Shown here one piece after another: positions 4,138 through 32,940 of a stretch of 64,000 bases of DNA; position 1 is the first letter of the stretch, and each line of letters starts with the position of its first letter. Source of the stretch: Bacteroidia bacterium (GTDB taxonomy: Bacteria; Bacteroidota; Bacteroidia; B-17B0; Aurantibacillaceae); the NCBI GenBank assembly GCA_025362575.1, contig JANYIQ010000237.1:18570-82569 (forward strand), in the 5' to 3' direction. The notes below the pieces were generated by a model. The model searched no databases. It was given only the letters and a program-made list of their open reading frames with translations, and had not been told where the DNA came from. The translations under genes and the position numbers were made by a program.

Positions 4138-6186
4138 ATGTTAAAACATTTTAAGCGCACCTTAGTTACAGCAGCCTTACCATACGCTAATGGCCCCGTT
4201 CACATTGGGCATCTGGCAGGCTGTTATCTGCCCTCCGACATTTACGTTAGGTACCTGCGTAGTAAGGGGGAGGATGTTGTGTTTATATGCGGGAGCGACG
4301 AACATGGCGTTCCCATTACAATTAAAGCAAAAAAAGAAGGAATTACCCCTCAGCAGGTAGTAGACAAATATCATAAAATGATGGGTGATGCCTTTCGTGA
4401 TTTTGGAATTTCGTTCGATATTTATTCACGCACCTCATCTAAAGTACATCACGAAACAGCTTCCGGTTTTTTTAAAACATTATACGATAAAGGTTCATTC
4501 ACCGAACAAGTTACCGAGCAGTATTACGACGAAGAAGCAAAGCAGTTCTTAGCCGACCGTTATATTACCGGCGAGTGCCCTAAATGCGGTAACCCCAATG
4601 CTTATGGCGATCAGTGCGAAAGCTGCGGGTCATCGTTAAACGCCACCGATCTTAAAAATCCTAAATCTACCTTATCGGGAAGCGCTCCGGTTTTAAAACA
4701 AACCAAGAACTGGTTCTTACCCTTAGATAAATTACAACCAAAAATAGCCGATTACCTGTCGCAGCATACCGACTGGAAAACCAACGTTTATGGTCAGTGT
4801 AAAAGCTGGTTAGACAGTGGCGACGGATTACAGCCGAGAGCCATGACACGTGATCTGGACTGGGGAGTGCCTGTTCCGGTAAAAGGTGCGGATGGAAAAG
4901 TACTTTACGTTTGGTTCGATGCGCCTATTGGATATATTTCGGCCACAAAAGAATTGATGCCTGATAAATGGGAAACGTACTGGAAAGATAAAGACACCCG
5001 ATTAATTCATTTCATTGGAAAAGACAATATAGTTTTTCATTGTATTATTTTTCCTGCCATGTTAATGGAACACGGTGAATTTGTATTGGCGGATAATGTT
5101 CCGGCAAACGAATTTTTAAATTTAGAAGGCGATAAAATTTCGACCTCTCGTAACTGGGCGGTGTGGCTGCACGAGTACTTAATTGATTTTAAAGACCAGC
5201 AGGATATTTTACGATACTCACTTTGCGCGAATGCCCCTGAAACAAAAGACAATGATTTTACCTGGAAAGATTTTCAAACCAAAAACAATTCGGAGCTTGG
5301 TGATATTTTAGGGAATTTCATTAATCGCGTGATGGTACTTACCAACAAAAATTACAATTGCATTGTGCCGGAAGCCAGCGAATACACCAAAGCAGACCTG
5401 TTGGTATTGGAAGAGATGGCTAAGGCTCCTGATAAAATTTCAGAAGCATTGGATAAATTCAAATTCCGTGAAGCTTTAGCTGAGATGATGAATTTGGCAA
5501 GAATTGGGAATAAATATTTAGCTGAACAAGAGCCCTGGAAATTAATTAAGAGTGATGAAAAACGCGTAAAAACGGTAATGAACATTTCCATACAAATAGC
5601 AGCGAATCTTGCCATTGTTTGCGAGCCTTTCATTCCGTTTACAAGTAAAAAATTATTTGACTTATTGAATCTTGCACCTTTAAAATGGCGCTCGGCAAAA
5701 AATACGAATAATGTTCATGCCGGTCATAAAATAAGTGACCAGTCGGGAATTTTATTTTCGAAAATAGAAGATACAGATATACAACCGCAATTGGATAAAT
5801 TAGAGAATTCTAAAAAAGAGAACGCTTCATCGAACGCAAAAATAGAACCTGCAAAAGCGGAGACCTCTTTCGAAGAATTCAGTAAAATGGATATACGTGT
5901 TGGAACTATTTTAGAAGCAGAGCGCGTGCCTAAAACCGACAAACTGCTTAAGTTAAAAATTGATACCGGCATTGACCAACGTACTGTTGTTAGTGGTATT
6001 GCACAGTGGTACAAACCCGAAGACATTATTGGGCAGCAGGTAAATATTTTAGTGAACCTTGCTCCGAGAAAAATAAAAGGAATTGAAAGTCAGGGCATGA
6101 TATTAATGGCCGAAAATGCGCTGGGCGAATTAAGTTTTGTGGTGCCCAGTAAAAAGGAGATGAATAATGGCTCGAATGTTAAGTAA
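4138..6186 (+). CDS. metG: Methionyl-tRNA synthetase with C-terminal tRNA-binding domain
   Basis: [16 protein letters not shown]; zinc Cys cluster [30 protein letters not shown]-terminal [26 protein letters not shown]. Confidence 0.97.
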
Positions 6187-30101: not shown

Positions 30102-30734
30102 ATGTCAACACTTGTAGGAAAAAAAGCACCGAGCTTCAAAGCAAAAGCGGTAGATAAAGGCGGAGAAATATTAAATGATTTTTCTTTAGACCAATATGTA
30201 GGAAAAAAATATGTGATCTTCTTTTTTTACCCAAAAGATTTCACGTTTGTTTGTCCGACTGAATTACATGCTTTTCAGGAAAAACTTGCTGAATTCGAAA
30301 AACGTAATGTACAGTTAGTGGCTTGCAGCACCGATACAGAACAAAGTCACTGGGGTTGGTTACAAATGGATAAAGCAGCAGGTGGTATCAAAGGAATTAC
30401 TTACCCGATAGTTGCCGACACTAACAAAACCATTTCAATTGCTTATGGTTGTTTAAATGGCGAGTATGATGTAACTGATAATGGCGAATTTATTGCGAGC
30501 AGCGAAATGATCGCTTACCGCGCCTTATATTTAATTGATAAAGCCGGGAATGTTCGTCACCAATTAGTGAACGATCTTCCATTAGGCCGTAACGTTGATG
30601 AAGCTTTACGTGTTGTTGATGCTTTACAATTTAACGAAGAGAACGGTGAAGTTTGTCCTGCCAACTGGGTAAAAGGTAAAGAAGGCATGAAGGCTGATCA
30701 CAAAGGTGTGGCAAGCTATTTGGCGAAGAACTAA
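30102..30734 (+). CDS. Peroxiredoxin, typical 2-Cys AhpC-like
   Basis: FFYPKDFTFVCPTELHAFQEKL; HLV-region; EVCPANW. Confidence 0.93.
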   Translation: MSTLVGKKAPSFKAKAVDKGGEILNDFSLDQYVGKKYVIFFFYPKDFTFVCPTELHAFQEKLAEFEKRNVQLVACSTDTEQSHWGWLQMDKAAGGIKGITYPIVADTNKTISIAYGCLNGEYDVTDNGEFIASSEMIAYRALYLIDKAGNVRHQLVNDLPLGRNVDEALRVVDALQFNEENGEVCPANWVKGKEGMKADHKGVASYLAKN

Positions 30735-30789: not shown

Positions 30790-30890
30790 GTTTATATTTA
30801 ACTTATGATTGGCGGACAAATAATTACAATTGAGCACTAATGATCAGATGTTCGCTTATAAGGTAGTTAGGCACAATAAATTAGACAGAC

Positions 30891-31625
30891 ATGAACTTTA
30901 AGACAATTTCTGGGACAATAATGATCTTCTTCCTTTTCTCTTGTGCACCGCAAGACGACGGTGCTCTACCAAATGGCATGGTACCAGGCCGAATTATTAC
31001 TGATAAATCTACTTATACTACAAGTAGCATTACCTCGACAATTGTCGTTCCGACAAATTTGCCAGCCTACGAAAAAAGAATAGCAAACTTTGTAAACTGC
31101 AAGTTTATTCCGTCGGACAAAAACAATGAAAAGAAGTATAACAGCAATCATTTTGTAATTGACTTATTTATTAAAAACCCTTCTTCGCTTCAAGGTCAAC
31201 AAGAATATAATATTGTTGTTGTTGATCAAACAATTAAATTTAGTTGCATGAGCTCAATTCCACCGACTTGCGACTTTAAAACTTCTCGTAATTTATCAAA
31301 AGAAGAATTAGCTGACATTAAAAAATTATTAGACTTTAGTGATTTAAAACAGGAGAAGGCTGAAATTCCATTTGAAAACACAAAAGGTATTTTTTACCGC
31401 GAATATTTATTCGTTAAAAATAAAGAGAAGATAATTAATGGTGGCAGACTTTCGCCAATGACAACAGACGGCGCTTTCGCTGACTTACAAATAAGCTCTG
31501 ATAAAGTTGATAAAGACCTCCGTGACTACTCAGCCAGTTTTAAAGGTAACCCTGACTCTTTAATAAAAGCGCTAAAAACATATGCTAAGTTTGACAGTAT
31601 TATGTACGTCTATTTCCCAGGTTGA
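30891..31625 (+). CDS. Hypothetical lipoprotein (candidate cassette gene 1)
   Basis: MNFKTISGTIMIFFLFSCAPQDDG lipobox. Confidence 0.65.
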   Translation: MNFKTISGTIMIFFLFSCAPQDDGALPNGMVPGRIITDKSTYTTSSITSTIVVPTNLPAYEKRIANFVNCKFIPSDKNNEKKYNSNHFVIDLFIKNPSSLQGQQEYNIVVVDQTIKFSCMSSIPPTCDFKTSRNLSKEELADIKKLLDFSDLKQEKAEIPFENTKGIFYREYLFVKNKEKIINGGRLSPMTTDGAFADLQISSDKVDKDLRDYSASFKGNPDSLIKALKTYAKFDSIMYVYFPG

Positions 31626-31631
31626 ATTTAC

Positions 31632-31830
31632 TGTGCCTAACACCAAATTCGCGTCAGCGGGCGGACGTCGAAGTTTTTTGCTTATAATTTGCCCGCCTGC
31701 GGCGGAATGTTTATTTTTACTATAAGCAAAAAAAGAGGCAGCGGTGAGCAATTAATTTTGTTTGGTCGGTTTAGACACAGGAATGTTCCAAAGCCCGCCG
31801 AACGCAAATTCGGAAACCGTTAGCAGTAAG
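31632..31830. repeat. Large nested palindromic element, attC-like
   Basis: TGTGCCTAAC start; arms AATTCGCGTCAGCGGGC (31646-31662)/GCCCGCCGAACGCAAATT (31793-31810); perfect 13-bp stem TTTTTTGCTTATA (31674-31686)/TATAAGCAAAAAA (31721-31733); inner CCGCC-TGC-GGCGG (31693-31705); ends in GTTAGCAGTAAG. Confidence 0.7.
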
Positions 31831-31881
31831 TGGCCGGACAAATATTTAGGTAGATAAAAATATCGCTTGAAAAGAGGGATT

Positions 31882-32592
31882 ATGACAAAAATAATATTTT
31901 CAACCTTAATTTGCTTTTGGTTATTAGTGAGCTGTAACAACAAAGTTGGCAATGAAAATAATATTCCTGAAAATAAGGCTGCCAATCAAAGCGACACGCT
32001 AGACGACAAGGTTGCTAGGGAAATTAAGGCGATATTTAGGGCAGAAACTTGTAAAATTACCCGCGACGCAGAAGGAGTTATTATAAAAAGCCTTTTTACG
32101 GAGCAATCTTTTATTGAGGAAGATGCCTCCGTGATAGCTTTTGCATTTTATCGATTATCGCAGAGTTATAAATTAAAACCTTATGATTTAATTAAAGTTG
32201 TATTAAAAGATAATTATGGAACTGAGTACAGGTTTGGTTTTCGTGACTTTAAGGAAAAAGCGGAGTGCTTTGAAACAGTAGAAAAAATAGGATCGCTATT
32301 ATTCAATAGAAAATACTCCGAATTAAAAAAATATATGGACTTATCACAGAGTGATGGAGGATTTGATCGGGCTATAAAAATGTTTAAAAAAACTGATTCT
32401 GTTTCTGGCAAAATAGACAACTTCGCAGTTATTTCAATCCAGTTTGCCAATACTATAACTAGAATCAACGCGAAAGCAAGTCACGCCAGTAATTACTCAA
32501 CATATTATTCTTTTGGCTTTAACAAAAAGACAAATAAACTTCAATACGTTGATGTAAATGATTCGAATCCAAATAAAGGAATATACAAATAA
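31882..32592 (+). CDS. Hypothetical lipoprotein (candidate cassette gene 2)
   Basis: MTKIIFSTLICFWLLVSCNNK lipobox. ORF-track start is 31867. Confidence 0.6.
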   Translation: MTKIIFSTLICFWLLVSCNNKVGNENNIPENKAANQSDTLDDKVAREIKAIFRAETCKITRDAEGVIIKSLFTEQSFIEEDASVIAFAFYRLSQSYKLKPYDLIKVVLKDNYGTEYRFGFRDFKEKAECFETVEKIGSLLFNRKYSELKKYMDLSQSDGGFDRAIKMFKKTDSVSGKIDNFAVISIQFANTITRINAKASHASNYSTYYSFGFNKKTNKLQYVDVNDSNPNKGIYK

Positions 32593-32682
32593 GGCAGACC
32601 AGCGGGACGTAACTATGTGTCGCCACCTTCTGCTAAAACATGGTTGACCCAATCTTTTATTTATATTTAAAAACAAACACCT

Positions 32683-32940
32683 ATGTCAAAAACAATGTGT
32701 CAGAGTTGCGGAATGCCTTTAAAGAAAGATCCTAATGGAGGAAGTACGAATGCAGACGGATCAAAGAATGATAAGTATTGCAGTTATTGCTACGATAAAG
32801 GTGATTTTAGATGGAAGGGCGATAAGGTTGATGACTTTCAGGAATTTTGCAGAAAGATGATGATCGAAAGTGGCCATAACAGATTCATGGCCTGGTTGTT
32901 TACAAGGGGAATGGGAAGATTGGAAAGATGGAAAAAATAA
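32683..32940 (+). CDS. Putative zinc-ribbon domain protein
   Basis: MCQSCGMPL...KYCSYCYDKGDF. Confidence 0.85.
   Translation: MSKTMCQSCGMPLKKDPNGGSTNADGSKNDKYCSYCYDKGDFRWKGDKVDDFQEFCRKMMIESGHNRFMAWLFTRGMGRLERWKK

Follow-up and report, generated by a model that had tools for sequence, protein, structure and literature searches.

A two-cassette remnant in a Bacteroidia genome points to an integron-type gene-capture system whose presumed recombinase lacks the IntI-specific insertion

Organisation of the locus

The window, i.e. the whole 64 kb stretch of DNA that was analysed, comes from contig C287 of a 4.32 Mb draft genome in 327 contigs. Between a peroxiredoxin gene and a zinc-ribbon gene it carries two predicted lipoprotein genes, both of which are genuine gene cassettes. 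The features are as follows.

30102..30734, plus strand: peroxiredoxin gene, left flank of the insertion (open reading frame; four congener orthologues)
30850..30869, plus strand: attI-like half-site GTTCGCTTATAAGGTAG^TTA, with the presumed insertion point between 30866 and 30867 (attI matrix)
30867..31819, plus strand: cassette 1, opening with GTTAGGCACAATAAATT, the inverse of the sequence with which its attC begins
30891..31625, plus strand: cassette 1 gene, 244-aa predicted lipoprotein (open reading frame)
31625..31641, plus strand: R'' box and outer arm of attC 1, AATTTACTGTGCCTAAC (inverted match)
31635..31825, plus strand: attC 1, long type, ~180 nt between cores, predicted to fold on the bottom strand (95% identical copy on contig C231)
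31820..32639, plus strand: cassette 2, attC lost save for a degraded R'' box, CTTCTGCTAAAAC
31882..32592, plus strand: cassette 2 gene, 236-aa predicted lipoprotein, with an alternative TTG start at 31867 (open reading frame)
32612..32639, plus strand: degraded R'' box and outer arm of cassette 2, TAAAAC replacing TAAC
32683..32940, plus strand: zinc-ribbon gene (PF12674), right flank of the insertion (profile match)

An earlier note on this DNA had described an inverted pair of short sequences around each lipoprotein gene. It placed GTTAGGCACA at 30866, TGTGCCTAAC at 31632 and GTTAGCAGTAAG at 31819, and all three lie exactly there; the fourth sequence is present but occupies 32627-32639, one base to the left of the start at 32628 given for it. 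Both matches are longer than had been claimed. The one around gene 1 extends over 17 nt at 94% (30866-30882 against 31625-31641), and when all 65,260 pairs of GTT and AAC spaced 150-2600 nt apart in the window were ranked, the pair 30866/31641 came first with 17/20 matching positions, the runner-up reaching 15. The near-inverted pair around gene 2 consists of GTTAGCAGTAAGTGGCCGGACA and the reverse complement of the right end, GTTTTAGCAGAAGGTGGCGACACA, the core of which carries a 2-nt insertion. The stretch 31632-31830, taken for a long imperfect palindrome, indeed behaves as one, the bottom strand of 31625-31840 being predicted to form a single long hairpin with paired ends (-34.6 kcal/mol, z -2.2). 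The second right-hand site, rightly called degraded, is all that is left of the attC of cassette 2, and nothing resembling an attC follows after 32639. No Rfam family reached its gathering threshold in the window, and neither cassette protein matched a known family.

At the left end, the half-site scores 16.2 on a matrix built from 61 attI sites (described below). This is the best match in the 64 kb, the next scoring 11.4, and true attI sites score mostly 12-28. A full attI also has inverted repeats, which were not observed here, and we read the left end as an insertion at an attI-like secondary site or as a decayed attI. The earlier note had named conserved synteny of the two genes across relatives as evidence against its cassette reading; instead, the gene behind the peroxiredoxin orthologue is a different one in all four congeners, which thus provide no empty site for comparison, and homologues of both cassette genes were absent from 60 other genomes of the family.

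With the right-hand attC missing and the attI reduced to a half-site, the pair in the window might be thought a chance resemblance, the real array lying only elsewhere in the genome. Against this stand an attC with 95% identity to one of the array copies (on C231), the first-ranked inverted pair of the window and its top-scoring attI match, and we consider a chance resemblance extremely unlikely.

Copies and arrays in the same genome

The earlier note had proposed a search of the genome for further copies of the element, and this search returned ~10 relatives of the long type together with ~20 copies of a shorter sister attC family with ~84-86 nt between cores. Copies of the long element lie on C231, C282 (twice), C69, C204, C255 and C65, with shorter matches on C243, C197 and C20, and several of the matches start and stop exactly at the AAC and GTT cores. 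Many copies sit at contig ends, as expected because repeats break assemblies.

Contig C282 holds a tandem array with an attI at 5215 and cassettes at 5215, 5740, 6559 and 7592, a fifth being cut off by the contig end. In each of the four, the end is the inverse of the opening bases, and short and long attC alternate along the array. The attI adjoins, and the array lies directly behind, a remnant of a tyrosine-recombinase gene, of which the last ~90 residues are left, split over two frames. No intact copy of the recombinase described below was found in this genome's assembly. As the gene is a truncated and frameshifted remnant, the arrays are probably frozen or dependent on an enzyme outside the assembly.

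On contig C243 (L025, 5454-7320) we observed a fuller attI without an integrase, next to a chromosomal gene and followed by one cassette with about three ORFs, the attC of which is degraded (~120 nt). Isolated sites thus occur elsewhere in the genome too.

Structure of the cassettes and attC sites

We ran an attC detector that ignores cassette starts on the array regions and on the DNA behind 80 recombinase genes. It found 142 sites, compared with 1 in shuffled DNA, and a de novo cassette scan gave 49 matches, compared with 2 in shuffled DNA. The cassettes follow one another in tandem on one strand, each with an ORF and an attC, and the longest ORF is on the array strand in 54 of 70. The attC lengths fall into classes of ~80-90, 110-123, 160-188 and 220 nt; the length of ~195 bp and the GTTAGCA core of the window element, correctly seen but previously regarded as atypical, are normal for these attC. 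The strict core consensus RYYYAAC / GTTRRRY is not followed, in that GTTR alone is fixed and positions 5-9 are cassette-specific, yet match their own partner.

This match between the start of a cassette and the start of its own attC was measured on 70 adjacent pairs. Identity over positions 5-20 averaged 9.5/16 for own partners and 4.3 when partners were exchanged, and none of 2000 permutations did as well (0/2000). Agreement is ~90% at positions 5-9 and ~70% at positions 12-15, fading by positions 16-18. Such extended complementarity is not unique to the Bacteroidia system, as the class 1 cassette aadA1 also has 10/12 matches (counted by eye). A separate observation concerns position +11, which is A in all 70 cassette starts and mismatched with the cassette's own end (7% agreement) amid paired arms; from these alignments it looks like a fixed extrahelical or contact base.

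The attC sites have AAC and GTT cores enclosing an imperfect palindrome that folds on the bottom strand. In a bottom-strand alignment of 12 short attC sequences, 12 of 35 base pairs have changed on both sides with the hairpin kept, and a four-base spacer beside the core is unpaired. G-T wobbles in the stems number 212 on the bottom strand and 36 on the top strand, and the bottom strand has the more stable fold in 113 of the 140 attC sites compared. Selection on a folded bottom strand, a hallmark of integron attC, would be expected to give this asymmetry. A covariance model, a kind of check that the earlier note had suggested, was built from this genome's own short attC and found sites in 25 of 41 genomes (relatives and the genome itself).

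Sequence conservation in the inner part of the long element, and its scatter over many contigs, would also be expected if dispersed MITE- or REP-like hairpins flanked small genes by accident, without cassette mobility. Against this, the units are tandem and mostly contain one gene each, the arms differ from cassette to cassette yet match the start of the same cassette in the permutation analysis above, and one attI, placed after one recombinase, serves as the anchor of the arrays. We therefore regard accidental hairpins as very improbable and treat the units as gene cassettes.

In L022 and L117-L119, short (~85 nt) and long (~170-220 nt) attC occur in one array, with inner halves that are seemingly unrelated. 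The RF02914 (DUF805b RNA) motif was detected in the array region of L119 (7307-7343, 45.4 bits against a gathering score of 35.6) and, below gathering, at L022:5763-5799, right after a cassette start; judged by these positions, this cis-regulatory motif may be cassette-borne. Weak Rfam matches of the C282 attC hairpins to mir-208 were rejected as the chance resemblance of a long hairpin.

The recombinase and its attI site

Genomes with attC sites mostly hold one intact recombinase of ~365-392 aa, the C-terminus of which matches the remnant on C282, and tandem arrays occur in relatives (e.g. genome G007). We refer to this recombinase as BacInt. A scan of named genomes gave 80 BacInt loci, nearly all labelled Bacteroidota and spanning Flavobacterium isolates, Belliella, Cyclobacterium, Saprospiraceae and Sphingobacteriaceae MAGs; one, L168, is labelled Rhizobium. 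Around the BacInt genes, the downstream DNA (286 kb) yielded 46 cassette hits on the strand of the gene and 2 on the other strand, and the upstream DNA (688 kb) yielded 5 + 5.

An attI was recognised in 61 of the 80 loci, mostly at a near-constant distance of 93-108 bp behind the BacInt stop codon, with the core TATAAACNAG^TTA and the consensus ...TATAARCNAG^TTR. Between the integrase gene and attI, a -7-type promoter-like box, TANNTTTG, is present in 34 of 78 loci (3% in shuffles), mostly 10-20 nt past the stop codon. Array structure, attC and attI anatomy, strand bias and recombinase linkage can all be read directly from these sequences.

The catalytic residues of BacInt (R239, K264, H329, R332, H355 and Y364) are invariant and make up the complete R-K-HxxR-H-Y set of a tyrosine recombinase. 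The spacing from K to HxxR is 66-67 residues, compared with 107 in IntI and 73 in XerD-like proteins, and the IntI-specific insertion (patch) is lacking; BacInt is ~40 residues short here and its alignment with PDB 2a3v breaks at this point. BacInt scores 204-207 against TIGR02249, the cut-off of which is 265, and in a tree it forms a clade separate from IntI; a sister relationship of the two received support of only 86/40, on long branches. BacInt also has an extra N-terminal domain of ~70-100 residues, which is a candidate DNA- or hairpin-binding module.

In the L139 protein, residues 1-72 form a small alpha/beta domain with an invariant S-x5-W, and one member gave a weak match to DUF5710 (E 0.019). 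A phage antirepressor-like gene (ORF6N-/BRO-like by eye) follows the recombinase in L138, L139, L148, L149, L157 and L158, and in L138/L119 such a gene lies between recombinase and attI; it is possibly a regulator or a captured gene.

Distribution of BacInt and IntI

BacInt was found in 101 of 396 Bacteroidia genomes, from 56 of 198 genera, the class being assigned by way of the relatives that bear names. Canonical IntI was found in 107 of 393 genomes of the phylum, these hits including a single genome of class Bacteroidia, and no IntI scored over the cut-off in the window's own genome or in ten related array-bearing genomes. The detector found no arrays within 10 kb in 12 regions around canonical IntI genes of the phylum, so that the comparison with canonical arrays is a thin one.

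These data bear on whether the cassettes are canonical ones, moved by an ordinary IntI that acts in trans or has since been lost, the neighbouring Xer-like recombinase being incidental. The attC and attI do look canonical, with GTT/AAC cores and a bottom-strand hairpin, the class 1 site attI1 ends in ...TAAAACAAAG^TTA, and other classes of the phylum often carry IntI. This is opposed by the single Bacteroidia genome among the IntI hits, set beside the frequent occurrence of BacInt in that class, and by the near-constant distance of attI behind BacInt in most of the 80 loci, from Flavobacterium to Sphingobacteriales, with arrays starting there. Mobilisation by an ordinary IntI is accordingly an improbable explanation, and we continue with BacInt as the candidate enzyme.

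Proposed mechanism and its significance

Taken together, the window very probably holds what remains, in the form of two cassettes, of an integron-type system for gene capture in Bacteroidia, in which BacInt would be the recombinase and the folded bottom strand of attC its substrate. The reaction, the strand on which it takes place and the cycle of capture and excision are what we infer from the anatomy described above. A cassette consists of one, sometimes a few, ORFs and an attC, and its first bases can pair with those that immediately precede this attC; because of this complementarity, the attC bottom strand of an excised circle could fold into one long hairpin. BacInt (~345-395 aa) would bind the folded bottom strand and cut between G and TT, and the circle would be inserted at attI, ~100 bp past the BacInt stop codon, or at attI-like sites such as window position 30866. 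Repeated capture would then give tandem arrays with genes mostly on the integrase strand. In the genome studied here, with its recombinase remnant, the arrays would be idle.

We also think it likely, with somewhat less confidence, that there is a second integron lineage throughout Bacteroidia, whose integrase acts on folded, single-stranded attC and has no IntI-specific domain, the N-terminal domain perhaps substituting for it. If so, either the IntI domain is dispensable or the capture of hairpin cassettes has evolved more than once from Xer-like enzymes. The earlier note offered a CALIN-like, integrase-less cassette array or an analogous cassette system in Bacteroidota, and both halves of this reading are supported; it was right yet incomplete, as the recombinase, attI and class-wide distribution lay beyond its reach.

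Integrons are the best-known gene-capture machines, and their ability to recognise folded attC has been attributed to an insertion that only IntI has. In about a quarter of the sampled Bacteroidia genomes, cassette arrays whose DNA bears the hallmarks of an integron lie behind a recombinase without this insertion. The presumed recombinase of this system lacks a supposedly essential domain, which makes a textbook requirement testable. If BacInt does the job, nature offers in it a test of the requirements for hairpin recombination, along with a large pool of cassettes, as yet unseen, in environmental Bacteroidota and cultured strains for study (e.g. Flavobacterium limicola, F. succinicans and Belliella pelovolcani).

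Comparison with known systems

No report of arrays with BacInt was found in the literature searched, in which subscription journals and preprints were thinly covered, and an earlier report is possible. Salinibacter ruber belongs to a different class from Bacteroidia. From the Bacteroidetes, a survey that relied on an IntI profile reports In0 elements and just one complete integron, that of S. ruber M1 (PMC9024848); these are from the same phylum as the system described here, but were found by their IntI.

The window resembles a CALIN in that its cassettes and attC lack a neighbouring recombinase gene. It differs in having one intact attC and one degraded; IntegronFinder 2.0 by default reports CALIN from two attC upward (PMC9024848). 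The window can thus be described as a CALIN-like outpost, established where the sequence resembles attI.

With Xer/XerA, BacInt shares the catalytic core. It scores 215-233 on NCBIfam NF040815 ('site-specific tyrosine recombinase/integron integrase', cut-off 220), and its nearest solved folds are XerA (5hxy) and an integron integrase (2a3v). Unlike Xer/XerA, it has a C-terminal SPFDxL resembling the IntI tail, the N-terminal domain and a cassette array.

The features shared with sedentary chromosomal integrons are cassettes of ORF plus attC in tandem arrays, the G^TT core, the bottom-strand hairpin, in which a spacer next to the core stays unpaired, and an attI next to the recombinase gene; a promoter-like box, as a putative promoter, lies ahead of attI in some of the loci. 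In contrast to those integrons, BacInt lacks the IntI-specific insertion and scores below the TIGR02249 cut-off, attI and the array are found past the 3' end of the recombinase gene and share its strand, the attC are often 160-220 nt long, and the core is GTTR plus a variable run rather than GTTRRRY. A census of tyrosine recombinases notes that the insertion is incompletely conserved in its integron-like subgroup, yet calls it essential for integron function (PMC8138268). The Bacteroidia system would appear to work like an integron while departing from one strict feature of IntI, the insertion, and relaxing another, the GTTRRRY core.
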